Source: a virus
Virus record (IMG/VR): IMGVR_UViG_3300017951_000078
Location: 1 to 29,483 of that record
DNA length: 29,483 bases
Reading direction: 5' to 3' (one strand)
The notes beneath the pieces were generated by a model that saw only the letters and a program-made list of their open reading frames with translations, made no database searches and was not told the DNA's origin. Below are positions 8,311-29,016 of this stretch, piece after piece; position 1 is the stretch's first letter; each line of letters begins with the position of its first letter. A program made the translations under genes and the position numbers.

Positions 8311-8334
8311 TTTATATTCTTTCTATTTTAAATT

Positions 8335-9735: not shown

Positions 9736-9750
9736 AATGTTTTAGGTGTT

Positions 9751-9770: not shown

Positions 9771-9799
9771 CTTTTGGTTAAATTTGAGAAATTTTATAT

Positions 9800-10657: not shown

Positions 10658-11271
10658 TTCGTGTATCTATCTTCTAAATTTTTTACGTTTTTGTAATATT
10701 CGTTTAGTAATTCACTTAAATAGCCTGTGTTTGTGAATTTACCTGACCTGATTTTTCTGTTAGCTTGTATACCTTCTCCAGACCTCGATTCTTCATGGTC
10801 AGATGTAATATACATGCCGAAGCCTGATAGCCCTGTTTCCATGGCTTTAACCCATGATCTTCCTCTTGCCCAAGGTAAAGGAGTAGCTTTATATATTTTA
10901 TCTTTTGTTGGTACGTCTATTTTAACATCTGTATAACCATTTCTACTAACAATTTTAATTTCGTATTCCATCAGTATAGCTTTTAAAACTTTTATAGGTT
11001 TTTCGTCTTCATAAAAACCAATAAAACCAAACAAATTTGAATACCCTTTTAAAGTGCCGCTAAGATTGTATCCATTAGGACCCATATCTATTTCTCTTGA
11101 TATAGGGTGATTTAAAAAACTTTGTATGAATTTATTGCGAACTGATCGCATAGCCTTTTCAGCTCTAGTTCTAACTGTCTTTTTCCACTCCGCTGTTAAA
11201 TGCAATTTGTTAAGCTCCGGTATTACGTAGAGCTTCATCAAATCCCTTTTTCTATAAGTGATAGATGGCAT
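10654..11271 (-). CDS. Probable neck or tail-completion protein
   Basis: A 205-residue protein, the second gene of the minus-strand operon, coupled to both neighbours (TAATG overlap before it, ATGA after it). The first 60 residues form a basic helical region (WKKTVRTRAEKAMRSVRNKF) like the N-terminal helices of HK97 gp10 or lambda Z-like tail-completion proteins, which join tail to head. The C-terminal third carries an aromatic, basic stretch (PLPWARGRSWVKAMETGLSG), then a helical end. Size fits lambda gpZ. Sequence identity to that family cannot be tested here, so the call is from size, order and helix pattern. Confidence 0.5.
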   Translation of the reverse strand: MPSITYRKRDLMKLYVIPELNKLHLTAEWKKTVRTRAEKAMRSVRNKFIQSFLNHPISREIDMGPNGYNLSGTLKGYSNLFGFIGFYEDEKPIKVLKAILMEYEIKIVSRNGYTDVKIDVPTKDKIYKATPLPWARGRSWVKAMETGLSGFGMYITSDHEESRSGEGIQANRKIRSGKFTNTGYLSELLNEYYKNVKNLEDRYTK

Positions 11272-11723
11272 TATTGAGATGATTTAACAAAGAATGTATA
11301 AAATTGAACATCAAATAAACCATGCCCACGAAAATCGCTATCGACAAAGTAAACGCCATTATCGAATTCTAATCTTAGGCAATCTTTAACTGTGCTATAA
11401 TCAGCAGCTTTAATTTTAAGCCTTATCTTGCCTTCTTGCATTTTAATTTTTAATTGAGAGTCTGCTTCAGAATCTGAAAAATAATCTTCATCATAAGATT
11501 TGTTATACATAATTCTGGCATATATTTGCGCAGATTGAGGCGTATAAGTTATACTCGTTGTGGCCCCAGCATTTCCGTAAACTGAGTTGAAAGATGTACT
11601 TGGAGTAGAAATAGTTTCTTTAGCTCTTTTATAAACAGTAACCAGCCTAGCAAAAGTATCATGCTGATCATTCATTATGCTATTTAATGCGCTTTTTTCT
11701 GTTGATGTTAGTAAGCTTGACAT
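11271..11723 (-). CDS. Probable head-tail joining (head completion) protein
   Basis: A 150-residue protein, the first gene of the minus-strand operon. Its N-terminal helix (TEKSALNSIMNDQHDTFARL) followed by a beta-rich body with a short late strand motif (FDVQFYTFFVKS) fits small head-closure proteins that bind beneath the portal. It is preceded by the GTGTATAAT motif eight bases before the ATG, with no Shine-Dalgarno sequence, and its stop overlaps the next start by one base (TAATG). Being first of a head-tail joining operon supports the role. The exact family is not recognised. Confidence 0.5.
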   Translation of the reverse strand: MSSLLTSTEKSALNSIMNDQHDTFARLVTVYKRAKETISTPSTSFNSVYGNAGATTSITYTPQSAQIYARIMYNKSYDEDYFSDSEADSQLKIKMQEGKIRLKIKAADYSTVKDCLRLEFDNGVYFVDSDFRGHGLFDVQFYTFFVKSSQ

Positions 11724-13560: not shown

Positions 13561-13569
13561 GTGTATATT
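13561..13569 (+). promoter_or_regulatory. GTGTATATT motif upstream of the tape measure gene
   Basis: GTGTATATT lies ten bases before the ATG at 13580 and directly after an eight-T/seven-A stretch (13544-13560). The A/T tract may act as an upstream activating element. It shows that the tape measure gene may have its own short-leadered transcript as well as the operon mRNA. Confidence 0.45.
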
Positions 13570-13579
13570 GATTAAGAAT

Positions 13580-16500
13580 ATGGCGATTAATATACCTGCG
13601 AATATAAATCTTCAAGTTAGCGGTTCTAGACCGTTAGGAAAATTAACTGGAGATTTGAATCAGTTTGAAAGCTCGTTACGTGCTGCTAACGCCCGTGTAT
13701 TAGCTTTCGGTGCCTCTACTGCTATCATTGCAGGTATCACTAAATCGTTTAAAGATTTAGCTGCTACCACCATTCAAGTTCAAAAATCTTTCACTGACAT
13801 TAATCGTATTTTATCTGTAACAGATTCTACTTTTAATAAATTTGGGTCAGATATTTTCAGGATAGCAAAGCAAACTGCCACAGGTTTTGATGATGTAGCC
13901 AAGGCTGCTTTGGAATTTTCTCGTCAAGGTTTGAGTGTTGAAGAGGTGTCTAAAAGAACCGCTGACGCTTTAACTTTGGTTCGATTGACGGGTATAGACG
14001 CAGAAAAATCAGTGAGTCTTTTAACTGCCACAGTAAATGCTTTTAGTAATCTAGATACAACAAAAGCTCTTAATAAATTTGTGGCTGTAGAAACTAAGTT
14101 TGCTGTTTCTGCCGGTAACCTTATTGAAGGTTTGAGTCGAGTTGGTTCTGCTGCAACTGATGCAAAAGTGAGTTTTGATGAACTAAATGCTTTGATTACA
14201 GCGGTTCAACAAACAACCGGTAGAGGTGGTGCTGTAATTGGTAACGCTTTAAAAACTATATTTACTCGTTTGCAACGACAAAGCACACTAGAGCAATTAG
14301 AAAGGTTCAATATAGGTGTGCGAGATATCGAAGGTAATATTTTACCGGCTGTTAGAATATTAGAAAATTTTGCTAAAGCTTATGATGGTTTATCTGATTC
14401 AACTCAAGCTTATTTAAGAGAGCAAGTTGCTGGAGTTTTCCAAGCGAACAATCTTTCTGCTATACTTAAAGATTTAAATAAAGAGCAATCTATCACAGCT
14501 AAATCTTTAGAAGTTTCAAAGAATGCTACCAATGAAGCTGCTTTAGCTAATGAAAAATTAAACAGAAGTTTAAGCGCATTATTAGCGCAGTCTTCTACAG
14601 AGGTAGCGCAGTTACAAGCTAATATTGGCAAGGTAACTTTTGAGCCGCTTGCAAAAAGTGTCACAAAAATTTTCGTAGATAGTTTAGAGCAAATCAACAA
14701 AGTGATATCTACTCCTCAAAAAGATTTAGAATCAGCAGGCGAACAGTTTGGAGGTTTTTTGAGCAAAGGTATACTGAAAGGTTTGTCTAATTTATTATTA
14801 CCTGCAACAGCTGGGATATTTACTGTTTTAGCCGTAGTCGCAAAAAGATTTTTAAAAGATTTGGCGGCGGCAGTGCCAGCATATTTAGGTTTAGAAACTC
14901 AAGCTGCTAAAAGGCTTCAACTAGAACAAAACATATTAAGAGTTTTGCAGCAGCAAAACGAACAAACCAAAAAAAACACAATGCTGTCCACTTTACCTGC
15001 CAATAAAAGGCAGGCTGCAGGAGTTACATCTATGGAATTAGGTGCTGAATCTGCTTCAGCTATGAAAGAGCAAAGGAGAATTCAGGACATACAGTCTAGA
15101 ATTGCACTTGGTGGCGTTGGATCAAGCAAAGGTATGGTTTCAGCTTTTGGGAATGTAGCAGGTAGCTTGGTGGGTGGAGCTTTATCTATAGACCCTAAGG
15201 CTAGTGCATCGATGGTTGCTAAAGCAAACCAATTATCTTCTGCGTTAGCGGTTGGAGTAAAAGACCAACAAAAGTTCAATGCTCAAGTTAAACGTGTAGC
15301 TCAACAATACGGTGTTAACTATAATCAATTGTTAGGGCAAATAAGAAATGCGTCTAAAGTTAATTTAGCTGGGGTAGTATCTCAAGCAAACCCAAATTTC
15401 AAAAAAATACAAATTGAAGCTAGTAAGCTTGCTGGGTCAATAAATAGAGGTTCAATTCAAGCAGATGTAGCTGCTTTGGAAATGAAAGAATTTGCTATAA
15501 GTTTAGGTATGAGTAGTGCGCAAGCTACTAAAATAGCAAACAGAATGCTTTTGATGTCTCAACAAGCGGATCAGGCCGCTAAAGGAGGCTTTTTTACAAG
15601 ATTAAGTAGAAGAATGGGGGGAATGGGGGGGAGGCTTGGGTTGGGGCTTGCAACAGGCCTACCAATGGTCGCTGGATTAGCTGAGCAGGCTATTTTTAGT
15701 GATACGCCTAGAAGCAAACTAAGCGGAGGTGAGAGAATTTTTAAATCAGGACTAGCTAATGTCTCCAGTTATGCAAGCGTGGGCGGGACGGCAGGCTTTA
15801 TTATGGGTGGGCCTGCTGGGGCGGCAGCAGGTGCGGCAGCTGGAGCTATAGCAGGATTAGCGCAAGCTGCATTGAATGCTAATTTAAGTTTAGATGAATT
15901 AGCTGAAGTAACAGAAGAGTATGCTAACAAAACCAAAGAAGATACTAGCTTAGCTAACCAGTATATAGAAGCAGTCAGAAAATTGAATGATCCGGCTTTA
16001 AGTGGGCAAGCCAGATTGGAGGCTCAAAAGAAATTTCAAGAAGTTTTAGAAAAAGTTAGTAAAAGCGATTTGCCTGAAAGATTTAAATCAGCAGGCAGGA
16101 ATGTAACCGAGCTAGCTAGTTCGCTTAAGCTTTATGAAAAAGAACGTCGTAGAGGAGAAGTAATTCGGGGATTAGGAACCAAAGGAGCTCAACTTCAATT
16201 ACTACAAAGAGGTTTTACATCTGCTGCGGGAGCTCCTACAGGAGGATCTGCAGCAATAACCAGTGCAGAGGCTTATAAATTTTTCGATAAAGAAACTATT
16301 GCGTCAATAACTCCGGCATTTGGAGAATTTTTTGGTTACTTTGCTGACGCAGCAGGTAAAATATCTCCAGAAACTGCGCAAAAATTAAATAAAATAGTAA
16401 AAGATAATAGTGGCGGACTTTTTGGTTTTGATGAGGAAGGTTTAGCCAAGGATTTGCAGAGCGCTTTCCCAGATACGATTGGGCTTGGAGATATTGAGAT

Positions 16501-19114
16501 ATTAAGTGAACAGTTTAAGAAATTTGGAAACGAAGAATTAATAAAGTTGTTTGAAATGTCAACTAGTATTGTTGAAGAGTATTATGAGCTTCTTAATGGA
16601 GAAGTGGAAGTTGAGGAACTCGAAAGAAGCTTAATCAGAACTAAGCAAAGATTAACAAATATAACAAGGCAAAAGGGCGCAACCTCTTTTGATCAAAAAA
16701 TTAGAGATAGTTACGATCAATTGTTGTCCAGTATACAAGATCAAATATCTACAGATTTAAAATTAACTGCTGAGCAACTTGTAAGGAGACGTTTCGGAAA
16801 TCAATTAGCGCAATTAGGTCAAACTAGATCACAAGCAGAAGCTGCATTTAGTCTTAAAAATATAAGCGGATTGCAAACCGCTTTTGATCAAGCAAAATTT
16901 ACTCAAAGTGATCCGGCATTGCAAGCTTATGAACGTGCTATGGCAGATTTTGTGTTGAATCCTGATCAAGCATTAGCAGATTTAAGAAGCGATATATCTA
17001 AAGGCATTTTTCAGGGTGAAGATATAGATAAACTTCAGAATTATGTCGCAGATTTATCTGAAACAAGAAGGCAAGAATTAGTAAACCTTCAATACGAAGA
17101 AAATGTTTTAAGAGCTAGGCAAGAAATCGAACTACAGCGAGCAAAAAACACTGACAAGCTTGCTACTTTAGGCTTCCTTGAGCGTTCCGGTCAATTTCAA
17201 GCACGAATAAATCAAGTAGGAACTATTAGGCCAATGCAAAGAGAGCTGGCTAACCTTGAATCTCAAAGAGGTCTTATTAGCAGTTCTCCATTTTTAAATG
17301 CTGCAGAAAAGTTTGAACAAACTCAAAAATTAGATGCAGATATATTTAAAAAGCAAAGAGAAATTGAGGCAGCTAGGCAAAAGTTTGAATTGGATATGTT
17401 TGATGCTCAAAAATCTTTCGAAAGAGAAAGATTGAGTACCGAATTATCATTAGCTGATGCGCAGGTAAGAGCTCAAGGCATTTTAACTCAAGCTTTAAAT
17501 AATTTAGCCGAAGTCATAGCTAACCCAGCTTCTATTATTGAGCAAGCCAAAAAGAACGTATTAAACGATAGATATGAAAGATACAAGTCTGACTTTGAAG
17601 GAACAAAAGATGTTGATAAGAGAAGAGCCCTGACTAAATCTTTCAAAGAGGATCAAAAATTAATAAATGATAGATACTCTCAGCTTCAAGAAACAACCGG
17701 ATATTCTCCAAATAAAACAGGGTCAACAAGCGTAAGCGCTTTTCGAGGTGTGTCTGATAGTTTAAGCCAAGTTTCTGTAGAAATGAGTAGGCTGCAAATT
17801 TTAACAGATCAAGAAAGGGAGCTGATTGTAAAAACTTTTGGTGAAGACGGCATAGACGCTTTAAATAACTTTAAAGAAAAACAAAAAGCAGCGCAACAAG
17901 AATTTGAAAATGTGCGTGGAGCAGGATCTTTTACGAGAGGCCTTGAAAAAGGTTTTAATAATATAACTGATGATGTAGACACTTTTAGATTTACTTTAGG
18001 GGAAGAAATTCCAGATATGTTTGCAAATAATATGGCAAACGCTCTTAATCAAGCAATGGATGGGGCCGAAGATTTAGGTGATGCTTTAAGAGGGGCTGCG
18101 ATTGGATTTTTGACAGAAATAAGAAATCAATTAACAGCGAATGCTGTAAAAGGTTTAATAAGTGGGACACAAGGATTATTTAGCTCAGACTATAGCGGCA
18201 TAACTGCAAGCAAAGAACAAAGAGGAGGTTTTATTCATGCTCAAAATGGTATGTACATATCTGGCAACAGATACGGTGACCGTAATCCGGCGTTACTTGA
18301 AGATGGAGAATATGTATTAAATAGAAATGCTGTTCGTGCTTTAGGTGGGCCAAATTCTATAGATCAACTTAATTTTGGAATGGCTCCGAGATTTCAGTCA
18401 GGAGGATCAGCATTTATCAATGAACCGATGGGTAGTTCAAGATTAAGCGGGTTATTTTATGCTTCTGATGATCCTGCATTGCAAGAAGCTAGAGACGCTG
18501 CTAGAGCTAGATACGAAGAAAGGCAACGAAAAAAAGCGGAAAGCAAAGCGTTAAGAAACGCTTTTATAAGTGCTTTAGCTATGGGCGCATTTAGCGGCGT
18601 ATCAGGATATATACAAGATCAAGGGGGTCTTGGAGAAATGTTCAAAAATAAGGGCTCAGGTGCAGATCCCGGTGGAGAATTAGAAATACAAAAAGGTGGG
18701 TACATAAATAGCGGCGCACGAAATATAGATTCTATTCCTGCTTTTATGGCTGGAGGAGAGTTTGTGATGAACAATAAAGCTGTTCGTAAATATGGATTAG
18801 GTTTTATGAGCAGGCTGAACGGGGGATACATTCCTACTTATCAATCTGGGGGATCGGTCGCTGAATCTCCGGCTCCCACTTTAAACGCCATGGGCGGAGG
18901 AAGCACTAATAACATCAACATTAGTGTTAATATGGGTGGATCACAGTCTGGTGAAGCGTCTAGCGGTTCATTAGGAAACGGTCAAGATGGAGGAGATGAT
19001 ACTTCAAATGCAGAAGAGTTGTCCAAGAGAATTGAGGCCGCAGTAGTTAAAGTTATACAAAAAGAACAAAGAGTTGGCGGCTTGTTAACAGAAGGCGGCA
19101 GAAAGAATAACTAA
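13580..19114 (+). CDS. Tape measure protein
   Basis: A protein of 1844 residues from the ATG at 13580; an in-frame TTG at 13568 overlaps the promoter-like motif and is less likely. It sets tail length and spans the tube lumen. Residues about 60-200 match the phage minor tail/tape measure core (helices with SRQGLSVEEVSKRTADAL). Hydrophobic segments lie near 405-440, 680-705 and 733-765 (Gly/Ala-rich), typical of the part inserted in the host membrane during DNA entry. Long coiled-coil regions follow (about 1000-1400). The C-terminal 300 residues hold two related blocks, around 18223 and 18695, each with GEYVLN/GEFVMN and a Gly-rich flank (FQSGG; YQSGG). No transglycosylase or peptidase domain is seen. 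At about 0.15 nm per residue the length suggests a tail near 280 nm. Confidence 0.9.
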   Translation: MAINIPANINLQVSGSRPLGKLTGDLNQFESSLRAANARVLAFGASTAIIAGITKSFKDLAATTIQVQKSFTDINRILSVTDSTFNKFGSDIFRIAKQTATGFDDVAKAALEFSRQGLSVEEVSKRTADALTLVRLTGIDAEKSVSLLTATVNAFSNLDTTKALNKFVAVETKFAVSAGNLIEGLSRVGSAATDAKVSFDELNALITAVQQTTGRGGAVIGNALKTIFTRLQRQSTLEQLERFNIGVRDIEGNILPAVRILENFAKAYDGLSDSTQAYLREQVAGVFQANNLSAILKDLNKEQSITAKSLEVSKNATNEAALANEKLNRSLSALLAQSSTEVAQLQANIGKVTFEPLAKSVTKIFVDSLEQINKVISTPQKDLESAGEQFGGFLSKGILKGLSNLLLPATAGIFTVLAVVAKRFLKDLAAAVPAYLGLETQAAKRLQLEQNILRVLQQQNEQTKKNTMLSTLPANKRQAAGVTSMELGAESASAMKEQRRIQDIQSRIALGGVGSSKGMVSAFGNVAGSLVGGALSIDPKASASMVAKANQLSSALAVGVKDQQKFNAQVKRVAQQYGVNYNQLLGQIRNASKVNLAGVVSQANPNFKKIQIEASKLAGSINRGSIQADVAALEMKEFAISLGMSSAQATKIANRMLLMSQQADQAAKGGFFTRLSRRMGGMGGRLGLGLATGLPMVAGLAEQAIFSDTPRSKLSGGERIFKSGLANVSSYASVGGTAGFIMGGPAGAAAGAAAGAIAGLAQAALNANLSLDELAEVTEEYANKTKEDTSLANQYIEAVRKLNDPALSGQARLEAQKKFQEVLEKVSKSDLPERFKSAGRNVTELASSLKLYEKERRRGEVIRGLGTKGAQLQLLQRGFTSAAGAPTGGSAAITSAEAYKFFDKETIASITPAFGEFFGYFADAAGKISPETAQKLNKIVKDNSGGLFGFDEEGLAKDLQSAFPDTIGLGDIEILSEQFKKFGNEELIKLFEMSTSIVEEYYELLNGEVEVEELERSLIRTKQRLTNITRQKGATSFDQKIRDSYDQLLSSIQDQISTDLKLTAEQLVRRRFGNQLAQLGQTRSQAEAAFSLKNISGLQTAFDQAKFTQSDPALQAYERAMADFVLNPDQALADLRSDISKGIFQGEDIDKLQNYVADLSETRRQELVNLQYEENVLRARQEIELQRAKNTDKLATLGFLERSGQFQARINQVGTIRPMQRELANLESQRGLISSSPFLNAAEKFEQTQKLDADIFKKQREIEAARQKFELDMFDAQKSFERERLSTELSLADAQVRAQGILTQALNNLAEVIANPASIIEQAKKNVLNDRYERYKSDFEGTKDVDKRRALTKSFKEDQKLINDRYSQLQETTGYSPNKTGSTSVSAFRGVSDSLSQVSVEMSRLQILTDQERELIVKTFGEDGIDALNNFKEKQKAAQQEFENVRGAGSFTRGLEKGFNNITDDVDTFRFTLGEEIPDMFANNMANALNQAMDGAEDLGDALRGAAIGFLTEIRNQLTANAVKGLISGTQGLFSSDYSGITASKEQRGGFIHAQNGMYISGNRYGDRNPALLEDGEYVLNRNAVRALGGPNSIDQLNFGMAPRFQSGGSAFINEPMGSSRLSGLFYASDDPALQEARDAARARYEERQRKKAESKALRNAFISALAMGAFSGVSGYIQDQGGLGEMFKNKGSGADPGGELEIQKGGYINSGARNIDSIPAFMAGGEFVMNNKAVRKYGLGFMSRLNGGYIPTYQSGGSVAESPAPTLNAMGGGSTNNINISVNMGGSQSGEASSGSLGNGQDGGDDTSNAEELSKRIEAAVVKVIQKEQRVGGLLTEGGRKNN

Positions 19115-19116
19115 TC

Positions 19117-20040
19117 ATGTCAAAAAACGCATCACCAAGTTACGAGCACATTTTTTATGTTAATGGCACTGGAATCTCTGGTATAAGAGATTTAGATATT
19201 AGTTACAGTGTTTCTCGTAACCCTATTAGTGCATTGGGCATTGGTCATGTACAACCTAGTTTGTCTGATGCTATACAAGGCGAAGTTAGTTTTACTAGAG
19301 ATTTAATTTATGAAGACCCGCTCTTCACCTTGACGGGCGATCAAATGGTGAATGGCACGTTGATTTATGCTTCAGATTTAGAAGAATCAAATGGTCAAGT
19401 TATAGGTTTTACTTCGGGTTATTTAACTAGTTATACAACAAGGGCAACTGTTGGAGATGTACCTACAACACAATGTAGTTTTGCGGTTTTTGGTCAATTA
19501 GGAAGCGGCGTAAGAAAAGGTGAATTAGATTATTCAGGTATTCATCCTTTATCTTCTATAAAGTTTATTAACCAAGGTTCTATAGTACTCAACGTAGACC
19601 AAAGTGAAACTAATAGAATAATGTCTTATGATCAACAATATACAATGGAGAGAATTCCTATATATGATCTAAGAGAAAAAACAAGCCAAAACTATTATGC
19701 TCCAACTCAAGTAATAAGTAAAACACCTGTTTCTGTGACGACAAATTTTGTTGTGGAAGTAGATAATTTTAAAACGGCGAACATGATAGATAACACCAGA
19801 AGCGGTGTTTACAGAAACTTGGATTTATATGTAAGGCAAGTAGATAGATCAGACGAAGGATTGCAAGACGAAACAGAAGCTTTTTTAAGAGACGAAAACA
19901 ATGAAATTCTAGAAGACGCAGGAAGAGTCACTGTTTTTTCATTCGATCCTATTTCAGGAAATTTAATATCAGAAAGTGTAACTACTTCTATAGATGGAGT
20001 GTTAACTGTAGCTTTAGGATTTCAAAACTATTTAAAATAA
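19117..20040 (+). CDS. Tail-tube-like protein, distal copy A
   Basis: A 307-residue protein starting three bases after the tape measure stop. It has two tube-like halves like the minus-strand tube proteins: domain 1 with GIRDLDISYSVSRNP and, at 101-126, GYLTSYTTRATVGDVPTTQC, the same pattern as the tube motif (GFxxDYTxxAxVGxxPT); domain 2 with SVTTNFVVEVDNF and a late strand TTSIDGVLTVALGFQ. It could be a distal tail ring or a second tube protein near the tip. Residues 255-275 are acidic. The tube-fold call is inferred from the shared motif and domain plan, not from an alignment score. Confidence 0.5.
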   Translation: MSKNASPSYEHIFYVNGTGISGIRDLDISYSVSRNPISALGIGHVQPSLSDAIQGEVSFTRDLIYEDPLFTLTGDQMVNGTLIYASDLEESNGQVIGFTSGYLTSYTTRATVGDVPTTQCSFAVFGQLGSGVRKGELDYSGIHPLSSIKFINQGSIVLNVDQSETNRIMSYDQQYTMERIPIYDLREKTSQNYYAPTQVISKTPVSVTTNFVVEVDNFKTANMIDNTRSGVYRNLDLYVRQVDRSDEGLQDETEAFLRDENNEILEDAGRVTVFSFDPISGNLISESVTTSIDGVLTVALGFQNYLK

Positions 20041-21929
20041 TGGGAAAAATACTTTCATACGGCAATTTAGGTGCACCAGCTGCTGCTGGAGATGTGTTGT
20101 TTATAGGAGACATATCAACAAGCGCCAGTAACCCTGAGATAAAATTTGTCATAACAAATGACCTATTTAGGCGGTCTAATATTTGGGCTGCAGATGGTAA
20201 CGGGTTAAGCTTGTATGATGACGGATCAACTTTAGGTGTTTTTATAAAAGACGGGGGTTATGTGGGAGTAGGTACTAATGCTCCCACAGCCCCTTTGCAT
20301 GTTTACGAAACTGCTGCAAACTCTGTTTTAAAATTAGAAACTTCTGCTGACAGTTACGATTCTTATATTGATTTTATTCAAGCTGGTACGAGTAAATTTA
20401 ACATAGGTTTTGATGATACAAATGATCAGCTTGTTATCACAAGGGCTATTGGTAGTAATACTGATATTGTAGTAGCTAGCAATGGTAATGTTGGAGTCGG
20501 AACAACAACTAGCTCTAGCACTTTAAATGTGTTAACAGACCTCAGGGTTGATTCTACTGCTGACATTATAATCGACGCAAGCAAAAAAGAAATTAGGGTA
20601 GATGATGGTGATTTAAAATTAATGGAGTATGGAGGCGGCACTTCTACTAATAAATCTACTGGAGGTGTGGAAATTTTTGGGAATGGAGGATCTTCCCCTT
20701 TATTTTATGCTAAAGTTGCTTCAACAACTGATGATACTCAAAATTTTGTGGGTATAGGTACAAATGCTCCTGATGCAAAGCTTCATGTAAAAGATGCTAG
20801 CGCAAATGTACTTCATTTAGAAACTACCACAAACACTAACCCTTATTTAAAATTAACTGGTAAATCAGGAGGCACTGCTTTTAGCAGTTATATATCTAGC
20901 TCTATAAACATAGTAGGTATAGGAGGATCGAATTCTGCTGGAACAGGGACTTTAAATATAAGCAGGGCAAGCGGAACAGAAGGTTATGTTCATATTGGTG
21001 GCACTTCATTCAGCCATAAATTTGCAGTTACCGATTCTGCAACTGGTGGATCTCCAACTGTAGCATCTTTAACATCTAATAATAGTACTGGGACTGTATT
21101 AAGAATAAGAAATGGATATAGTACTTTGGGTGATGGGGCAAGAAGTATAACAGCTTATACTATATTCAATGGAACAAATCAAATTATAAATTGGATTAAT
21201 GGCTATTTTCAAAACGGAGGATCCCGTTATTACGGCATACATTATAATGACGCTGGTGTAGGCGGAGATTCCTCGCTTAATTTTCAAAGTACATTAAATC
21301 AAAATTTATTTTATATAAATACTTCTGGTGCAGCTAATTTAGGTGGAGCTATACATACCCATAATTTATCTAGTTCGACTTCTGGTCATAATACAGGAAG
21401 ATTTGTTCAAGCTTATCATTTAAGAGTTTATCTGAATGGTACAGAAAATCAGCTTTTTGGGGGGTTTGGGCCTCCGATGAGGGCTGGAGGTCGTACTTAT
21501 TTAGGAACGTATAATCATCAAAGTACTTCTGTAGCTAATGTCACAGCAACGAGTATAGCCCCATTCGCAGGCAAACTAATAAAAGCTTTTGTTTCGGGGG
21601 GGAACGTTAATGCTCAGTATGATGAACCTATAAGTGTTAGTACAAGTTTGTTTTTTAATGTTACAGCGTCAGGTGGAACTCTTCCAGCTATAAGCGACGA
21701 TAGACTAATAAGCACAAACAGTGCAAATATTACTTTTTCGGGTGGAACTATAAAGTCAAATACTCCTTTAGCGATAGAAGAAGGCGGAACTTATGAATGG
21801 GATACTTCTACTGGTGGAACTTTAGAATTTGATGAAAAATCTTTAATTATGCTAGCGATAAAAGCTGGCGGTAGTATTCCTCAAAGTTGTATAAATCTTA
21901 CTTTAATATACGAATTTAAAGTCACATAA
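20040..21929 (+). CDS. Fibre-like structural protein with VGxGT...LHV repeats
   Basis: A 629-residue protein starting with an ATG that shares its A with the previous stop codon. It is rich in Gly, Ser, Thr and Asn and strongly beta-prone. The motif VGxGTxxxxxxLHV (or LNV) occurs at residues about 75-88, 151-164 and 237-250, a repeat common in phage fibre and spike shafts and often ahead of an S74 chaperone domain; no such domain is present here. The C-terminal 170 residues (from about 460) have no repeats and could be a globular head that binds a receptor. It lies between two tube-like proteins in tail-tip territory, so a side fibre or decoration is likely. The receptor is unknown. Confidence 0.6.
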   Translation: MGKILSYGNLGAPAAAGDVLFIGDISTSASNPEIKFVITNDLFRRSNIWAADGNGLSLYDDGSTLGVFIKDGGYVGVGTNAPTAPLHVYETAANSVLKLETSADSYDSYIDFIQAGTSKFNIGFDDTNDQLVITRAIGSNTDIVVASNGNVGVGTTTSSSTLNVLTDLRVDSTADIIIDASKKEIRVDDGDLKLMEYGGGTSTNKSTGGVEIFGNGGSSPLFYAKVASTTDDTQNFVGIGTNAPDAKLHVKDASANVLHLETTTNTNPYLKLTGKSGGTAFSSYISSSINIVGIGGSNSAGTGTLNISRASGTEGYVHIGGTSFSHKFAVTDSATGGSPTVASLTSNNSTGTVLRIRNGYSTLGDGARSITAYTIFNGTNQIINWINGYFQNGGSRYYGIHYNDAGVGGDSSLNFQSTLNQNLFYINTSGAANLGGAIHTHNLSSSTSGHNTGRFVQAYHLRVYLNGTENQLFGGFGPPMRAGGRTYLGTYNHQSTSVANVTATSIAPFAGKLIKAFVSGGNVNAQYDEPISVSTSLFFNVTASGGTLPAISDDRLISTNSANITFSGGTIKSNTPLAIEEGGTYEWDTSTGGTLEFDEKSLIMLAIKAGGSIPQSCINLTLIYEFKVT

Positions 21930-22744
21930 TGGCAACAAAATTCATAAAATATGAAAATGCGTTATTAAAAATTGCTAATCAAACCATATTAGCAAACCAA
22001 GCTACTATTGGTGTCGAAGCTTCTTTGCAACCTATTACAAACGTTACCGGTTCTACAATTAGGTATGCCCCAGCTGCGCCAATAAAAGGAACTTTATCTT
22101 TTACTCATTATTGTACAGGCAGTTTTCATGATTTTTTAAACCCTATAACAGCTATAGAGCACACCGGAGAACCTTTGAACGGGAGTTTAGGCGGTGTACA
22201 GTTCGCCAGCGGATATGTTAGATCTTTAAGTTTTGATGTTCAGCCTTTTCAGCCTATTGTTTTTCAGTCACAAATAGATATATACGGCGAATTGACTCAA
22301 CTATCTGATGATGGTGACGAAGACTTGGATAGAAAAAATCTACCTGTTATTCCTGAGGACACATTAATAGGTCATGGTTTGCGTTCTTATTTGGCTGGAG
22401 ATGATTTAGGAGTAAACAAAAAAGTTAGTTTTTCATATAGCGCTTCTGCAGATAGAAATCCTGTAGTTACCATACCAAATGAATTACCTTACAGAGTAAC
22501 TAAAGAAAATGTTATGATTAGCATGTCTGTTGAAGGCGAAGACTTTGGTGACATATTAAAAGTGACAGGTAATCAAGCTGGAGTAGAAATACAAGTGTAC
22601 GATGTTTATGGCGATTCAGCCATAACACAGTTTGGTTGCACAGGTCAAATATACAGAAATAACTTATCTGCAACTGCGGGTGGTTATATCCAAGGAGGCT
22701 TATCTTTGAGTCAAGAATTTTTAACCGGAAAAGCTGAAGTATGA
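21929..22744 (+). CDS. Tail-tube-like protein, distal copy B
   Basis: A 271-residue protein overlapping both neighbours (TAATG at its start, ATGA at its stop). It follows the same double-domain plan as the other tube-like proteins: an N-terminal strand pair around IGVEASLQPIT, the shared element at 95-121 (GYVRSLSFDVQPFQP then QSQIDIYGEL), and a second domain with VSFSYSASADRNP and VMISMSVEGED, ending in GYIQGGLSLSQEF. Its VGxxPT block is replaced by PFQP, so it is the most divergent member. A ring at the end of the tube or a distal tail adaptor is a likely role, given the gpM-like gene directly after it. Confidence 0.5.
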   Translation: MATKFIKYENALLKIANQTILANQATIGVEASLQPITNVTGSTIRYAPAAPIKGTLSFTHYCTGSFHDFLNPITAIEHTGEPLNGSLGGVQFASGYVRSLSFDVQPFQPIVFQSQIDIYGELTQLSDDGDEDLDRKNLPVIPEDTLIGHGLRSYLAGDDLGVNKKVSFSYSASADRNPVVTIPNELPYRVTKENVMISMSVEGEDFGDILKVTGNQAGVEIQVYDVYGDSAITQFGCTGQIYRNNLSATAGGYIQGGLSLSQEFLTGKAEV

Positions 22745-23928
22745 TAATAAATTCGGGTATTAATAATATTAATGTTTCAGCTTTTGAACTTGGGAATAAT
22801 TATTCTATGTTTGATGTTGTGTATTATAGTGGTTTTACTGATGGTGGTAGCGAAAATTATGCAACACAAAGTCAGTCTGGTCATTATTATTATACAGGTG
22901 CTGCGGCAACATCTAGCGCATCAAATACTCCGCCAAGTGCAAATTCTCCTTGGACTCAGAAGTTCTTTTTTGAATCTTCATATGGATCTTCGGTTTCGTA
23001 TAAAAACTCTTCATATGACAATAATTTCGGAGACGGATATTATAGTTATTTAAGCAAAAGCGAAAACAGTTTAAAGGCTGCGTTTTCAGTTCAACTAAGT
23101 AAAAGGTCAGATAAAGAAGCAAAAGCTGCTGTTCATTTATTAGAAGATTCTTTTAACAAAGGACCAAAGCCAAGTGGAGGATACACAGGTATATATTGGA
23201 CCCCTTTTTCGCCTTATGACAAAGAACACGAATTTTACATAGAAAATATAGAGAATCAATTAGAATACCCAAATGTAAATAATATATCTACAGTTTTTTA
23301 CGATGAAACTCAAAGCACTACAGATTGGCAAGATTTCTTTATTCCATTTAAGAACACTCAAGGATTTTTCAAAATAGGAGAAGATTATTCAAGAGATGAT
23401 ATTGTTTATGCAAGCGGATCTAGTTATACAAATTACACAAGCGGTTGGTATTATTACACAGGTTTAGATACTACAGCTGCAAGCGCTTCAAATGGGCCAG
23501 CTGCAAATGATTCTTTATGGGTTAAAGATACTTTTTATTTCGACATAAACAAAGGTATACAATTCAAAGAAGCGCCAAGATTTTACAAACAGAACTTCCC
23601 AAATGAATTTTATATAAGAGTTGATGATGGAATTAATAAAAGCTTACTGTTCTTAAATTTTATTTTGCGGGGTAGGTCAGACAAAGAAGCCAAATCTATT
23701 TTGCATTTTTTGGAAAAACATAGAGGAAAAGATCAATTTAGATTTACGCCACCAGCTCCTTATAATCAAGATAAAGTGTTTGTATGTCCTGAGTGGAGCC
23801 ATACTTTGAATTTTAAAGATAACAATGATATTAGTGTAAAATTTATAGAACAACCGATTGATTATATAACAAGGCAAGTTACTTTTAAAAGTTTAATTAC
23901 TATAGATCCCTATATAAGAGAAAGATAA
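22741..23928 (+). CDS. gpM-like minor tail protein with internal duplication
   Basis: A 395-residue protein made of two copies of one unit (about 21-190 and 216-372, offset about 190). Each copy starts with an aromatic 50-residue module (DVVYYSG/DIVYASG, then YYYTG, then a final Trp), similar in pattern to small CBM5/12-type carbohydrate-binding domains. A tail segment with the motif RSDKEAKA and helix (V/L)H(L/F)LE follows. The second copy then has FRFTPPAPYNQDKVFVCPEW and a late SVKFIEQP, the pattern of lambda gpM-like minor tail proteins; the first has a matching WTPFSPYD. gpM works at the tail tip with gpL. The sequence is directly followed by the adhesin gene. Confidence 0.6.
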   Translation: MIINSGINNINVSAFELGNNYSMFDVVYYSGFTDGGSENYATQSQSGHYYYTGAAATSSASNTPPSANSPWTQKFFFESSYGSSVSYKNSSYDNNFGDGYYSYLSKSENSLKAAFSVQLSKRSDKEAKAAVHLLEDSFNKGPKPSGGYTGIYWTPFSPYDKEHEFYIENIENQLEYPNVNNISTVFYDETQSTTDWQDFFIPFKNTQGFFKIGEDYSRDDIVYASGSSYTNYTSGWYYYTGLDTTAASASNGPAANDSLWVKDTFYFDINKGIQFKEAPRFYKQNFPNEFYIRVDDGINKSLLFLNFILRGRSDKEAKSILHFLEKHRGKDQFRFTPPAPYNQDKVFVCPEWSHTLNFKDNNDISVKFIEQPIDYITRQVTFKSLITIDPYIRER

Positions 23929-23929
23929 T

Positions 23930-26929
23930 ATGGCACTCCCAAGCACAGTAACAAGTAGGGCTGAAGGCAATGAATTTGTTGCAACTACAGGTATGGAAAT
24001 ATCTGTTCAAACTGGGTTTGCCATAAGAACAGGATTTTACTTAACTAATAGTGGAAGCTATGGAGTTGATGTGACCATGGTCACAAACAATACAGAATTA
24101 GCTTTTGATTTCATTTCTGGAGTGCAATCTGAAATTAGTTTGCCTGCAGGGTCTACAAGATTAATACCTTTTGATTTTTATGGACTCAAAGATGTTAGTG
24201 GGCCAGTGGCAGGATCTACGGGGCCTGCTGGAACTGGCGCTTATACTGTTTCTCCTGTTTTAACGGTAAGATCGAAAATTAACAATCAAACTGACCCTGA
24301 AGGAACTATTAGGGTTAGAATCACAGGTTATGTTACTGGAGCAATAAACAGGTCAGCGGTAGTTGGACCTCAACCTGATATCGCACCCCAACATCCAAGC
24401 GGGTTTTTAGTGCTAACTGGGAAATTATCTGATGGAGGTAAACCTTATAATCAGCTTCAATGGAAAAATCCTTCTACTGGATATTACTTTGAAGAATATC
24501 AATTGCAATATTCTGATACAAATACTCAGTCTGCATCTTGGGCAGATGTCAGTTCTGCATCTTTAAGTTTTGACAGAAAGTATGAAATCAATGGCGAATC
24601 ACTAACTAATATTACTGTCGGATCAGATAGTATAGATTCTTATTATTATGGCACCCCCACGGGATTAGTTGGAAACGAAGATTATCTTGATCAGAATTTA
24701 TCATTTGATTCGGACTATTATTATAGAATAAGAGGCGTTCATTATGGTTTAGATCAATCAACAGTAATGACTACCACTGATTGGGTTTATGGTTACGCTG
24801 TAAATGATTTATCTTACGATGGTTTAAATAACGATATATTGACAGGTTTAGTCACAGGATCTTCTACGTTGCCAAGTGATAATAGTGTAGATCCTTCTAC
24901 AATTCTAAATGCTAAAACTGCGAAAAAACAAGCTATGATTACTTATCTTAAAGATGGAGAATCAGATATCAATATAAACTCTAAATTCAACAGTGAACTA
25001 ACCGAAAGAAACATTAGTTTGCAGGATTTTACTGATAATTTTTCAGGATACCACGTAGTAGTTCCAGTAGGTTATGCTGTGGGATCAAAAACAGTTGGAA
25101 AAGCCGCTATTGAAACTGGTGATCGAATTTTAGATTCAAATAGTTCTGAAGTCAAAGTTTTATTAAAATTACAGTCAAATAGTTTAGTGGCAGGTCGAGG
25201 TGGAGATGGTGGAGATGGCGGTTGGATTCGTGGGGAATTAAGGTCACAGATGACAAGTGCACGAACTACAAAAGTTATTGTTGTGTACACAGGAACGCAA
25301 CCATCTACAGAAGGTAGAAATGGTGATGCAGCCATAAAGATAACAAATTCCGATATAACAGAGTTTAAGATTTTTGCGCACTATAGTTCAAAAATTTACG
25401 GCGGCGGCGGAGGAGGTGCTGGAGGAGACACGACTTGGTTCACTAATCCGGTTTTAGCGAGATCAGTTGGTATAAATAATAGGATTCAGATAACTGGCGG
25501 GGCTAACGGACAGGTATTAAGTGTTACAGAAAATGAAAATCGAAGAAATGAGCAAACTTATGTCTTTTCAGTAAAAGATATAGTAGGTGTTACTATGGCT
25601 GGAATCGGGGGAGGAGGGCAAGGTTTTACTTCAAAAGGAGGATTGAATATTTATAGAAATTTACTGCATATACAAGGAAATGGAAGTCTAGAAGGCCCGG
25701 GAGCTGGCACAGAGAGAAGTTATCAGCAAAAAATAGGCCAAGGTGGTACAGGTGGGGTGTTTGGGGCCATAGGGGACAGATTGCAGAGCGAAGACGCTTT
25801 GAGTATAGAATCAAACAGAAATTACAGATCAAATGCAAGGTTACCCGGACTTGCTGGTTATGCAATAGATGCTCAATCAGCAAATTATACTACATATCAA
25901 TCTGCCAACTTCAGATCGAACTTATTTTACATTACTAAGCCTGCTGCTAGCTCTGACGTATCCAGTATAAATGGTTTTTTTGCTAGGTGGACAGCAGATC
26001 AAAAAGCTTATAATGCGGGAACAACTCAAGCGACAGATAATCAAACAGTAGAAAAATGGGAGGCAGTCGAGTATGCAAGCGCTTTAAGTTCTACTATTCC
26101 TTATTTAGAGCAAACAACAAACAGTCGCAAGCCTTACTTTAGAAACAGCACAAGTCGAGCAGACACAAAATATTTCGGTCAAAAGGCTCATATAGGTTTT
26201 GCTGGAAATTTAAAACATATGCGATTTTATAATGTTGTGGACGAAGATGCTAACGACACATATTTTAGGTCAAACATGCCCGGTTTTGAAGTTTTTTACA
26301 ATTTAATACCTAGAACAGATGGTTTTGATTATAGGCAGTTCAATGCAAATGGCCATTATCCTTTAACATTTAAATTGCATCAATGGGGTAAAAACAATAA
26401 CACTTCAAAAATGTATACGAGAGATTTAAAAGTTGTAGAATCTATGGGTTTAGAAGACAATAGATTCACATTTAAAGATCAGTTTTGGGGTGGTGAGGGT
26501 GGGTTTTTAAACCCGTCTTCGTCTTTTGTGTACAATGTATCCGTAAAAAAAATCAACTCCAACAGATTTGTACATGAAGTTTATTCTGGTACAGAATTGC
26601 AATCGTCAAACACAATAATCAATAGAGAACTTTACTTTAATAGCGATAATACTGCTTATTTAGGAGATCAAGTGCAAGCTGGAGATGGAGCAAGTTTTTG
26701 TATATCTGATATAATATTATTTAACAAAGCTCTATCAGACTCTGAAAGACAAGCGGTTAACACATTTTTAGTAAATAAGAATAGAGTATTTTATACTGCA
26801 ACTGTAACCGATATTACCGGAACCAACTATACGAATACGCTTAATAAGCAGTCATCTCAAATCCCGACGAACACTTTGCTGATGAATAACGGTATGGCTG
26901 GTTATATTATAACACCTGAAAGCCCTTAA
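23930..26929 (+). CDS. Mosaic tail-tip adhesin: Ig-like, FN3-like, glycine-rich and LamG-like regions
   Basis: A 999-residue protein in the middle of the tip genes, probably a receptor-binding protein. Residues 1-145 are beta-rich and Ig-like. Residues about 150-290 resemble fibronectin type III (a proline start, then QLQWKNP, YEEYQLQYS, YYYRIRGV). Residues about 345-655 form a glycine-rich region (GRGGDGGDGG at 422-431, YGGGGGGAGG at 490-499, GIGGGGQG at 558-565, GQGGTGG at 603-609, closing with GLAGYAI), the pattern of polyglycine-helix adhesin tips found in several phages. Residues about 670-955 look like a LamG/concanavalin-like lectin, ending in FNKALSDSERQAVNTFL, a helix typical of this fold. 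The last 45 residues are unassigned. It may bind a glycan; the target cannot be read from the sequence. Confidence 0.6.
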   Translation: MALPSTVTSRAEGNEFVATTGMEISVQTGFAIRTGFYLTNSGSYGVDVTMVTNNTELAFDFISGVQSEISLPAGSTRLIPFDFYGLKDVSGPVAGSTGPAGTGAYTVSPVLTVRSKINNQTDPEGTIRVRITGYVTGAINRSAVVGPQPDIAPQHPSGFLVLTGKLSDGGKPYNQLQWKNPSTGYYFEEYQLQYSDTNTQSASWADVSSASLSFDRKYEINGESLTNITVGSDSIDSYYYGTPTGLVGNEDYLDQNLSFDSDYYYRIRGVHYGLDQSTVMTTTDWVYGYAVNDLSYDGLNNDILTGLVTGSSTLPSDNSVDPSTILNAKTAKKQAMITYLKDGESDININSKFNSELTERNISLQDFTDNFSGYHVVVPVGYAVGSKTVGKAAIETGDRILDSNSSEVKVLLKLQSNSLVAGRGGDGGDGGWIRGELRSQMTSARTTKVIVVYTGTQPSTEGRNGDAAIKITNSDITEFKIFAHYSSKIYGGGGGGAGGDTTWFTNPVLARSVGINNRIQITGGANGQVLSVTENENRRNEQTYVFSVKDIVGVTMAGIGGGGQGFTSKGGLNIYRNLLHIQGNGSLEGPGAGTERSYQQKIGQGGTGGVFGAIGDRLQSEDALSIESNRNYRSNARLPGLAGYAIDAQSANYTTYQSANFRSNLFYITKPAASSDVSSINGFFARWTADQKAYNAGTTQATDNQTVEKWEAVEYASALSSTIPYLEQTTNSRKPYFRNSTSRADTKYFGQKAHIGFAGNLKHMRFYNVVDEDANDTYFRSNMPGFEVFYNLIPRTDGFDYRQFNANGHYPLTFKLHQWGKNNNTSKMYTRDLKVVESMGLEDNRFTFKDQFWGGEGGFLNPSSSFVYNVSVKKINSNRFVHEVYSGTELQSSNTIINRELYFNSDNTAYLGDQVQAGDGASFCISDIILFNKALSDSERQAVNTFLVNKNRVFYTATVTDITGTNYTNTLNKQSSQIPTNTLLMNNGMAGYIITPESP

Positions 26930-26954: not shown

Positions 26955-28004
26955 ATGGCAACTCAAGACCACAATGAATCATTGTTAGATTTATTACCTG
27001 ACACGATTATAGAATTATATGAAATGGATCTAGGTGAACAAGATGGGATATACAGGTTTCATCCGGGCGTAATAAGCGGAGAGGTTTTATTTTTTGATTC
27101 TTTTCCATACTATCCGCTGCCTGTTCAAGCTTCAGAGTTCGATAAAAGAGCTGACGGGCAAATGCCAAGGCCATCTTTAGTTTTGGCAAATGTAGATGGT
27201 TTTATTACCGATGTTTTAAAAGGAAGGCAGGATTTAGTGGGGAACAATTTTACAAGAAAAAGGGTGTTTTTAAAATTTTTAGACAACTCGAATTTTCCAA
27301 ATAATTTTAATCCTTTTGGTGTACCTAACTCAGAATCAAGGTTTGATGATGAATTTTATGTCGTAAATAAAAAAATAACAGAGAATAAGTTTTTTATAGA
27401 ATTCGAACTAGTTTCGCCTTTAGAATTTGAAAATGTAAAATTACCAGCTAGAATAATGATAGCTAATTATTGCCCTTGGAAGTATCGAGGAATAGGCTGC
27501 AAATATGGCCAGCTTTCTGATTTTAATAATCAGGTTATTAGCAATGAGAATGTATCAAATAAAACTCCGTCTACGGTTTTTACTTCAGGGGGTTCAGAGT
27601 TAGGAAATTTAGGTTTGCCCGTATCAGACGAAAACGATAAAATGTTTTTTGAAAAAGAAGGTTATGATTTGAAGGCGTTAACTTGGAGAGGGGATTATGA
27701 TAAAACAGTTTCAAATTATGTTAAGGGAGATATCGTAAGAATCAAAAGTAAATTCAACAATTTGGCAAAAATGAATTTATCTGATCCTGAACAAAATTTA
27801 CAGGATGATCCTGACACTTTTTTTGTTTGTATTAAAGATGCTCCCGCTGATCAAGACCCACGGTATGAGCAAATTTATTGGGCTCAAGACCAATGCTCTA
27901 AAAAATTAACAGGTTGCCAAAATAGATTTTCATTCTATGGACAGTATAGAAAAGGTTTACCGTTTGGCGGATTTCCATCAATTGAGTCTTACAGATTTCG
28001 TTGA
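26955..28004 (+). CDS. gpL-like minor tail protein with cysteine pairs split by an inserted module
   Basis: A 349-residue protein with the layout of lambda gpL: a beta-rich N-terminal domain that contacts the distal tube ring (about 15-165) and a C-terminal cysteine domain that in lambda binds an iron-sulfur cluster. Cys173 and Cys182 (NYCPWKYRGIGCKYG) form the first pair, Cys314 and Cys321 (QCSKKLTGCQNRF) the second, ending in GLPFGGFP as in the family. About 130 residues lie between the pairs; within them 247-312 has the aromatic pattern KGDIVRIK ... TFFVCIKD ... IYWAQD, like the modules in the gpM-like protein. Cys292 inside it is extra. The start is the ATG at 26955. The ORF ends 68 bases inside the gpK-like ORF. 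Confidence 0.75.
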   Translation: MATQDHNESLLDLLPDTIIELYEMDLGEQDGIYRFHPGVISGEVLFFDSFPYYPLPVQASEFDKRADGQMPRPSLVLANVDGFITDVLKGRQDLVGNNFTRKRVFLKFLDNSNFPNNFNPFGVPNSESRFDDEFYVVNKKITENKFFIEFELVSPLEFENVKLPARIMIANYCPWKYRGIGCKYGQLSDFNNQVISNENVSNKTPSTVFTSGGSELGNLGLPVSDENDKMFFEKEGYDLKALTWRGDYDKTVSNYVKGDIVRIKSKFNNLAKMNLSDPEQNLQDDPDTFFVCIKDAPADQDPRYEQIYWAQDQCSKKLTGCQNRFSFYGQYRKGLPFGGFPSIESYRFR

Positions 28005-28335
28005 TTCGTGTTTAGAAATACAAAACTATTGTAGGTTAAGCAGTAATGAAAAATGCGGTATCACAACTAACATTAAAACGCACATCGTAAAAAATTACTC
28101 TCAAGCTCAAAAAACCTTTTTTTATATAGATCCAAGCGAATATTACAGTATTTATTGCAAAGAAAATGTGCAATTTATTTGGCATTCCCACCCTATAGGC
28201 GATGCTAATCCAAGCCCTGTTGATATAGAAATATCTAACGAACACCAATATAATTCTATTATTTTTTCTAAAGAAAATAAAAATTTTTCTTTATACAGGT
28301 TTGATTTGCCTTCTGTAGTTTATTTTTATGTTTAA
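27937..28335 (+). CDS. gpK-like JAMM (JAB/MPN) peptidase
   Basis: A 132-residue protein with a complete JAMM zinc-protease motif: Glu38 (NEKCG), then His83-Ser-His85, Ser93 and Asp96 in HSHPIGDANPSPVD. This is the N-terminal domain of lambda gpK; the NlpC/P60 peptidoglycan hydrolase domain usual at its C-terminus is absent, so only the metalloprotease-like half is present. It acts in tail-tip assembly, possibly cutting a tip protein. The ATG at 27937 overlaps the gpL-like gene by 68 bases; a TTG at 27982 is an alternative that would trim 15 residues without touching the motif. The gpI-like gene follows, matching the conserved K-I pair. Confidence 0.8.
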   Translation: MDSIEKVYRLADFHQLSLTDFVDSCLEIQNYCRLSSNEKCGITTNIKTHIVKNYSQAQKTFFYIDPSEYYSIYCKENVQFIWHSHPIGDANPSPVDIEISNEHQYNSIIFSKENKNFSLYRFDLPSVVYFYV

Positions 28336-28353: not shown

Positions 28354-29016
28354 ATGACAGAAGTTCACATAGAAGGAAGATTGGGGAAAATTGTTGGATC
28401 GTACCATCGATTAAGTTGCTCTAATCTTAGGGAGGTTTTAGCAGCTATTGAATGCAATACTGGTAAATTAAGAAAATATTTACAATTTAACAAAAAAAGG
28501 TATTTTTCTATTTTTGTAGACGGTAAGCATGTAGATGGTTCTTTTTTGGGCGAAACAAAAGTAGCAGGGAAAAAAATAGTAATATTACCGATTATTATGG
28601 GGGCGATTGGTTTTACTATAGCTTTTAAAATAGGCCTAACAACAACTGTGGCAGGGGCTACGAAATTAACTGCGGTTGGAATGATAGTTGGATCTGTTAT
28701 AACTGCTGCCGTTTCTTTTGGTATAAGTATGATCATATCTAAAATGCTTGCTCCTGATGATCCAGAAATCATAAATACGACTTCTTTTGTTTTCAGTAAA
28801 GCTGAAAATGTTGCAGCCCAAGGTCAACCCGTTCCTGTAGGGTATGGAAGGCTCAGGGTTGGTGGTAGTGTTATATCGGTTAATATTTTTAATGTGGATA
28901 AAGAAAAATTTGATTCTGCAACTTTTTATAACGTATTCGCTGATAATATTGTTACAACTCTTGAGGGAAGCCCAGATGGCGGGGCAGCAACAGAAGAAGA
29001 AGAGTTTAAAGGTTAA
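28354..29016 (+). CDS. gpI-like tail assembly protein
   Basis: A 220-residue protein in the K-I-J order of the tail tip. The first 75 residues resemble the ubiquitin-like beta-grasp domain of lambda gpI (a strand, NLREVLAAIECNTGKL, then FSIFVDGK and a final strand). Residues about 76-130 form two hydrophobic Gly/Ala/Ile-rich segments that look membrane-spanning. They are followed by the family end pattern: FVFSKAENVAAQGQPVPVGYG then RLRVGG. gpI helps assemble the tail tip and is associated with gpK, whose JAMM domain may process this type of beta-grasp protein. The C-terminus is acidic. The next gene starts six bases after the stop. Confidence 0.75.
   Translation: MTEVHIEGRLGKIVGSYHRLSCSNLREVLAAIECNTGKLRKYLQFNKKRYFSIFVDGKHVDGSFLGETKVAGKKIVILPIIMGAIGFTIAFKIGLTTTVAGATKLTAVGMIVGSVITAAVSFGISMIISKMLAPDDPEIINTTSFVFSKAENVAAQGQPVPVGYGRLRVGGSVISVNIFNVDKEKFDSATFYNVFADNIVTTLEGSPDGGAATEEEEFKG

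Follow-up and report, generated by a model that had tools for sequence, protein, structure and literature searches.

Two gpM-type domains in one tail gene

Virus record IMGVR_UViG_3300017951_000078 was analyzed over its full length of 29,483 bases, referred to here as the window. Its plus strand contains an open reading frame (ORF) of 395 amino acids (aa) for a tandem distal tail protein of the gpM type, in which two gpM-like domains, M1 and M2, are each preceded by a small aromatic module. The gene and its parts are arranged as follows.

22741..23928, plus strand: tandem gpM-type distal tail protein, module-M-module-M (ORF, 395 aa)
22780..22956, plus strand: module 1 (residues 14-72), small aromatic domain with a predicted fold like that of carbohydrate-binding module (CBM) family 5/12 (VIA-align and alignment A7)
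22957..23325, plus strand: M1 (residues 73-195), first gpM/distal tail domain (VIA-align and hidden Markov model [HMM])
23371..23526, plus strand: module 2 (residues 211-262), linker module between M1 and M2 (alignment A5 and hhalign)
23527..23904, plus strand: M2 (residues 263-388), second gpM domain, nearest to canonical gpM (VIA-align and phmmer)

The internal duplication of this protein is far beyond chance. Residues 1-203 match residues 204-395 by BLASTP with an E value of 1e-22 and 31% identity over 177 columns, and the Smith-Waterman score of the two halves is 194, compared to a mean of 36 and a maximum of 67 over 1000 shuffles. In separate comparisons of the modules only and of the M domains only, the score was reached by 0 of 1000 shuffles each time. 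In addition, hhalign pairs the module-1 and module-2 alignments with a probability of 98.4 (E 8.9e-15), which is consistent with module and M having been duplicated together. Residues 14-388 consist of two modules, two M domains and a short linker. Pfam PF05939 (Phage_min_tail, the lambda gpM family) is matched at 59.2 bits (cut-off 39) in two stretches, the best at residues 263-370, and phmmer finds 8iyk_M with the M2 region (E 5.9e-6). By themselves, Pfam and PHROG searches label the tandem protein only as a minor tail protein. These results agree with a preliminary description drawn from the DNA letters, which had placed a gpM-like protein with a duplicated module-plus-M unit at exactly 22741-23928; the motifs that it quoted (VVYYSG, YYYTG, RSDKEAKA, FYIENIE and VFVCPEW) are all present in the 395-aa translation.

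Relatives were gathered in five scans of viral contigs and one scan of genome contigs, the best 80 loci being taken in three of the five viral scans. All queries were tandem proteins, so that single-gpM relatives are under-sampled. Among the resulting 311 loci are the window itself (L038) and some contigs that were retrieved repeatedly; the number of distinct tandem proteins is 207-208. According to HMMs of the four parts, M1 and M2 share one ORF at 307 of the 311 loci, with M1 first in all 307; 303 tandem proteins pass the length filters. Three of the four exceptions are cut at the contig start (L037, L090 and L229). In the fourth, the two module-M units form two ORFs in the same frame with a stop codon between them (L047:4311-5501), which could be either a sequencing error or a real split. 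Among the 307, M2 is broken over two ORFs in L193 and matched in two pieces in L088. The stop in L047 and the broken M2 of L193 are what an assembly artefact or a decaying duplicate might look like, an explanation that we regard as hardly conceivable for the tandem as a whole: 207 distinct tandem proteins keep a constant M1-M2 order and are deeply diverged, with conserved motifs in both copies, and the number of distinct contigs refutes an assembly artefact.

The relatives fall into five architectures. Architecture A is M-module-M, of about 320 aa, and architecture B, that of the window, is module-M-module-M, of about 395-440 aa. In architecture C, B is fused in frame to a homologue of d999, the protein encoded directly downstream of the tandem gene in the window. 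Architectures D and E are longer, with large inserts or C-terminal parts. Across 44 distinct window-like proteins, the d999 homologue is fused in 20, encoded by a separate ORF of the locus in 21, and was not found in 3; two of these three (L216 and L228, about 950-965 aa) resemble group-D proteins mis-sorted by the grouping rule. None of the 80 distinct group-A proteins has an N-terminal module recognizable by a loose pattern, against 120 of the 128 others. The linker module fits a loose pattern, applied without a shuffle control, in 303 of 303 tandem proteins, in which M1 and M2 are spaced 44-86 residues apart. Module 1 is interrupted by an extra segment in two loci (L010:253-1665 and L084:5001-6413), where its match spans 130 residues, which suggests that a loop of the module accepts insertions; module 1 of group E also tolerates inserts. 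From their sample numbers, we take the contigs of the relatives to be marine and those of group D to be freshwater.

This grouping bears on a further claim of the preliminary description, namely that copy 1 has lost a Cys-containing end typical of the family and that the copies may therefore have separate roles. The Cys end is indeed absent from copy 1, but this absence is clade-specific, and the Cys does not hold as a hallmark of the family. A loose Cys motif occurs in M2 of 29 of the 44 window-like and 46 of the 80 group-A distinct proteins, and in group E, 57 of 63 proteins have retained it in M1. As the Cys varies by group, its loss is a weak sign of separate roles and was rejected as family-wide evidence for them. 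A second candidate, the reciprocal loss of loop motifs, was set aside. In group E, 51 of 63 proteins have G[DNE]G[YF] in M1, and 54 have [DE]G[IL]N in M2; the figures for the window-like proteins are 42 and 41 of 44. The first motif is absent from every M2 of the two groups, and the second occurs in a single M1, in group E. However, these patterns are narrow, GAGY-like forms occur in M2 of group E, and the reciprocity does not extend to groups A and D.

To place the two copies relative to single gpM proteins, a maximum-likelihood tree was calculated from 56 pairs of M1 and M2 together with five single gpM domains. A branch with a support of 91 (Shimodaira-Hasegawa-like approximate likelihood ratio test, SH-aLRT) separates every M1 from the M2 and single gpM domains. 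At the level of the aligned sequences, this topology fits one old duplication. In five isolates, lambda among them, the gpM genes encode 109-118 residues each, and the window protein, with its two M domains, departs from this single-domain form of about 110 residues. PF05939 was also searched in 299 genomes of the phylum of locus L120, giving 20 matches in 13 genomes. The frames that contain 17 of the 20 measure 112-177 aa, and one weak match comes from a 561-aa frame; the sole frame with two matches comes from the genome of L120 itself, a member of the tandem family.

When 50,697 phage records were searched by tblastn with four queries, the outcome was either no match or, among the matches listed, partial ones with a query coverage of ≤34%. 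A fold search of BFVD gave 62 matches at E 0.001 or better, including longer isolate proteins such as those of Synechococcus virus S-ESS1 (397 aa) and Loktanella phage pCB2051-A (580 aa), and tandem proteins of this fold may therefore well exist in cultured phages. So far, this analysis has found no cultured member of what appears from the contigs to be a large siphophage group carrying the fusion.

Predicted folds of the M domains and modules

A first structural model, built from 24 sequences, had a predicted local distance difference test score (pLDDT) of 53.6 and was replaced by a model from a 91-sequence alignment (pLDDT 89.4; predicted template modeling score, 0.85). In VIA-align comparisons of the latter, M2 superposes on lambda gpM (8iyk_E) with Z 11.9 and a root mean square deviation of 1.6 Å, with 109 of 109 residues aligned at 25% identity, which further supports the gpM-like identity given in the preliminary description. 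M1 matches a gene transfer agent (GTA) chain (6tba_6A, Z 8.4) and a tip chain of T5 (7qg9_V, Z 7.8). Both domains are covered in one fit by residues 175-567 of 8rk3_D, a chain of the phage JBD30 baseplate (Z 12.8, 233 residues, 3.2 Å), and by 8vjh_B of the phage Chi tail tip (Z 13.1, 242 residues, 3.7 Å). In the model, M1 and M2 thus have distal tail folds and the side-by-side orientation of the two 8rk3_D domains. Both chains also came out on top with the first, weaker model, at Z values of 7.5 and 7.0; as this is the same protein, the result is not independent. Since residues 175-567 correspond to the published domains III and IV of JBD30 gp49, 8rk3_D was taken as this protein; gp49 was not among the four chains at E 10 or better in a PDB search with profile A6, an absence that is no proof.

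The preliminary description had likened the modules to CBM5/12-type domains, and the predicted structures bear this out at the level of fold. Module 1 superposes on residues 310-354 of 9jen_A, a Vibrio chitin-oligosaccharide deacetylase (Z 6.1, 1.5 Å, 45 residues, 29% identity). For module 2, matches come from the weaker first model only: to residues 357-405 of 9jen_A and to further Vibrio deacetylases, at Z 6.1-6.7, and to Serratia ChiB, at Z 4.9. The 15 matches within residues 199-264 of that model comprise 11 deacetylase entries, 3 chitinase entries and 1 cyanophage fiber, the tail fiber domain of A-1(L). A CBM_5_12 profile made from fetched sequences covers two stretches in each deacetylase chain (best at 359-398) and residues 459-492 of ChiB, so that the module-2 matches fall on CBM5/12 domains. 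A CBM5/12-like predicted fold is therefore supported for the modules, and the outcome named in the preliminary description as refuting its idea, namely folds unrelated to such a domain, did not arise. Z values near 6 are modest, and a shared fold shows no function.

At the sequence level, the comparison with CBM_5_12 that the preliminary description had called for gave a weak link. Alignment A5 holds 46 diverse linker modules (the window member spanning 23362-23526), and A7 is the corresponding module-1 alignment. Pfam CBM_5_12 matches 2 of the 46 linker modules, with a best E value of 0.077 that does not reach the cut-off, and finds no match at E 10 in the record of the window. Against 17 CBM_5_12 stretches, hhalign gives A5 a probability of 4.5 (P 0.009, 21 columns at the start) and A7 a probability of 0.9 (P 0.06, 15 columns at the start). 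A PDB profile search with the modules yielded nothing significant, the top weak match being 7b5h_AE (E 0.36). In view of this weak link, we call the modules CBM5/12-like in fold and not members of the Pfam family.

Two functions can be weighed for the modules. It is possible, if somewhat short of probable, that they bind glycans, chitin-like or GlcNAc-containing, so that the tail ring would touch host sugars like the evolved distal tail proteins (Dits) of Gram-positive siphophages. The fold matches to CBM domains of chitin-oligosaccharide deacetylases and ChiB point this way, as do CBM-bearing Dits with demonstrated cell binding (described in parts of PMC7291167) and a YYC..H[T/S]-like motif in the linker modules of 72 of 80 group-A proteins (3 of 63 in group E and 0 of 64 in the other two groups). 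On the other hand, the profile comparisons gave nothing beyond weak matches, and the modules do not conserve, residue for residue, the Trp-Trp pair that most of the fetched CBM sequences share. By eye, the YYC..H[T/S]-like motif resembles a few of the fetched CBM sequences.

The modules may instead have the CBM5/12 fold in a purely structural capacity, module 2 as the obligate link between M1 and M2 and module 1 as a docking or insertion platform for adhesins, an option that we consider about as likely, possible but likewise somewhat short of probable. The constant presence of the linker module between M1 and M2, over the spacing given above, suggests at least a partly structural role for it. 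The apparent absence of module 1 from all 80 distinct group-A proteins, its tolerance of inserts in L010, L084 and group E, and the nonsignificant CBM_5_12 profile match are in line with this option as well. Two observations speak against a structural role alone. The 46 linker modules share one invariant Tyr, and five further positions (the adjacent Tyr, a third Tyr, an Asp, a Pro and a Trp) are conserved in 90% or more of them. In addition, binding domains of chitin-active enzymes were the nearest folds found among solved structures.

Related small domains surfaced elsewhere in the searches. The head decoration family phrog_20658 matches 17 of the 46 linker modules (best E 1.3e-4), suggesting that the same small domain may decorate the heads of other phages. 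The CBM_5_12 profile also matches a putative tail fiber, 9rkv_M (E 9e-4), and weakly the cyanobacterial contractile injection system component 7b5h_AE (E 0.69).

Genes surrounding the tandem gene

The following features were assigned around the tandem gene.

13568..19114, plus strand: tape measure protein (phrog_4211, E 4.8e-42)
19117..20040, plus strand: u307, conserved, between the tape measure and tandem genes (neighborhood comparison)
21929..22744, plus strand: u271, conserved, upstream, overlapping the first four bases of the tandem gene (neighborhood comparison)
23930..26929, plus strand: d999, 999 aa, Gly-rich, downstream of the tandem gene (ORF and relatives)
26955..28004, plus strand: gpL-type tail tip protein (PF05100, E 1.7e-38)
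27937..28335, plus strand: gpK-like (JAB) protein (PF14464, E 9.4e-5, below cut-off; phrog_5556, E 5.6e-11)
28354..29016, plus strand: gpI-type tail assembly protein (phrog_32, E 1.4e-29)

The resulting order is tape measure-u307-u629-u271-tandem M-d999-L-K-I, in which the position of gpM between the tape measure and L is kept and extra genes intervene. Judged by their sequences, these neighbors fit a lambda-like siphophage tail. Neither u307 nor u271 has a Pfam or PHROG match. In PDB profile searches, u271 found no relative at E 1, and u307 matched antibody-type chains only (E 0.11-0.85) and no phage relative. The idea that u271 is a second duplicated tube protein was dropped, as 476 of 1000 shuffles reach the score of its two halves.

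By eye, d999 shows glycine runs and a LamG-like C-terminal pattern, and it has no Pfam match and no PDB match at E 1. Naming it as a particular lectin or adhesin was rejected, since the window protein has no Pfam match and those of its relatives are weak. One fused relative matches Laminin_G_3 at E 0.16. In group D, the C-terminal part of a longer tandem protein (L095:6132-7793) resembles the phage adhesin GP38 (E 4e-4, below cut-off). Further upstream, five minus-strand ORFs lie inside the structural gene block (6886-11723); none of the five has a PHROG match at 0.01, and none of the four scanned has a Pfam match at 0.01.

A putative fused adaptor ring and its known counterparts

The superposition of M1 and M2 on the chain taken as JBD30 gp49, a published trimer, leads us to read the window protein as a fused, pseudo-six-fold distal tail protein. 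We consider it likely that this is a two-gpM fusion of which three copies build a pseudo-six-fold adaptor ring, with CBM5/12-like modules on each M. By analogy to known tails, gp49 in particular, the most plausible account of the two fused gpM domains, missed in the preliminary description, would be that three tandem subunits take the place of six single ones in the ring, and it is from the model superposition that we infer the stoichiometry of the ring. Three copies would close one ring, (M1-M2)x3, which would dock under the last hexameric tube ring and show a three-fold face to a gpL/gpJ-type tip. The two conformers that one gpM chain adopts in lambda would here be encoded separately, as M1 and M2; a fused pair offers one domain per position, so that three chains would suffice. 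The module at the N terminus of each M would sit at the ring periphery, giving up to six small knobs that would serve sugar contact, probably of low affinity, or fiber docking. In many relatives, the ring protein would in addition bear the large Gly-rich protein of the next gene as a fused arm, three per virion.

An alternative arrangement is that six tandem chains form two stacked six-fold rings, one of M1 and one of M2. T5 has extra tube-like rings above its distal tail protein, as described in passages of PMC10038345. However, the predicted M1-M2 orientation fits the side-by-side domains of JBD30 gp49 over the 233 residues superposed, and we judge stacked rings to be improbable.

Several observations weigh against the adaptor ring and its single origin, beyond the weak sequence link between the modules and CBM5/12 discussed above. 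The tree rests on 131 columns, and the support of 91 for the M1/M2 branch is not starred. The single gpM rows, all on long branches, stand inside M2 beside the group-E M2 with a starred support of 95, a position that is as likely to be a long-branch artefact as to reflect descent from a tandem ancestor. Sequence identity amounts to 8% with the JBD30 chain and 11% with the Chi chain. Hubs of the gp27 type, which are fused tube-domain pairs too, also span both domains, although less well (Z 6-7, 4-6 Å, 160-200 residues): Mu 1wru gives Z 6.9 at 5.2 Å, 80alpha 6v8i_AE Z 6.5 at 5.4 Å and T4 1k28_D Z 6.1 at 4.2 Å. Finally, a passage on T1 (PMC11945409) describes the distal tail proteins of Chi, lambda and T5 alike as a single sandwich with a hairpin. 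This single-sandwich description does not fit a tandem Chi protein, and 8vjh_B is therefore only a candidate for the Chi distal tail protein.

Taken further, the adaptor ring suggests a scenario that we put forward as speculative and on balance doubtful. A once-only, ancient gpM fusion in a large siphophage group would have fixed the two copies in the two positions of lambda gpM, and up to six sugar-binding knobs, with three fused adhesin arms in some lineages, would have turned the adaptor ring into a receptor-binding device.

JBD30 offers the closest comparison. In passages of its structural report (PMC11445458), the gp49 trimer mediates the mismatch between the six-fold tail and the three-fold baseplate, and each subunit has two beta-sandwich domains, each with an oligosaccharide-binding (OB) domain, as its authors term it. 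Like gp49, the window protein has two beta-sandwich distal tail domains side by side in one chain, in the same orientation in the model, and each domain bears a small decoration. Unlike in gp49, where the OB domains are inserted in the sandwiches (252-320 and 444-532), the CBM5/12-like modules precede each M. The Chi tail tip chain 8vjh_B is similar in that both M domains superpose on it, but it is longer, with 557 residues; a ring of the Chi distal tail protein is described as easing a C6/C3 mismatch in part of PMC12724387.

As set out in passages of PMC10721106, the lambda ring that lies between the gpJ/gpL complex and the hexameric tube is three-fold and consists of six gpM chains, which adopt two conformers. 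Lambda gpM belongs to the same family as the window protein, has the fold of M2, and is likewise encoded with the tape measure gene before it and L after it. It differs in being a single 109-residue domain with six chains per ring, and single-copy gpM thus solves the same six-to-three problem by two conformers of one chain. T5 provides a parallel, among its tube and hub proteins, for the fusion itself: according to passages of PMC10038345, pb6, p140 and pb3 contain duplicated, fused tail tube domains and form pseudo-hexameric rings. The T5 distal tail protein pb9 stays a hexamer in the same account, in contrast to the window, where the distal tail protein itself is fused. Symmetry reduction by fused tube domains, known from T5 and JBD30, would now also be present in the gpM lineage. 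The evolution of symmetry adaptors becomes testable in this family, because M1- and M2-specific positions can be compared with the two conformers of lambda.

The modules find their counterpart in the evolved Dits of Gram-positive siphophages, distal tail ring proteins with carbohydrate-binding-type modules (passages of PMC7291167 and PMC8540738). In these proteins, the CBMs are described as insertions in galectin or arm regions and frequently belong to the BppA or CBM4 type. Unlike these, the CBM5/12-like modules of the window protein are N-terminal to each M, in a tandem gpM protein without a galectin domain. Thus, CBM-decorated distal tail proteins (evolved Dits, in part of PMC7291167) and a tandem trimeric distal tail protein (JBD30) were already known. 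New is their combination in the gpM family, together with the N-terminal CBM5/12-like decoration, the fused Gly-rich arm and the environmental spread; among literature titles, none was found on tandem gpM with CBM5/12-like modules. The decoration of distal tail proteins with carbohydrate-type modules would thereby extend to environmental lambda-like siphophages and to a CBM5/12-type fold.

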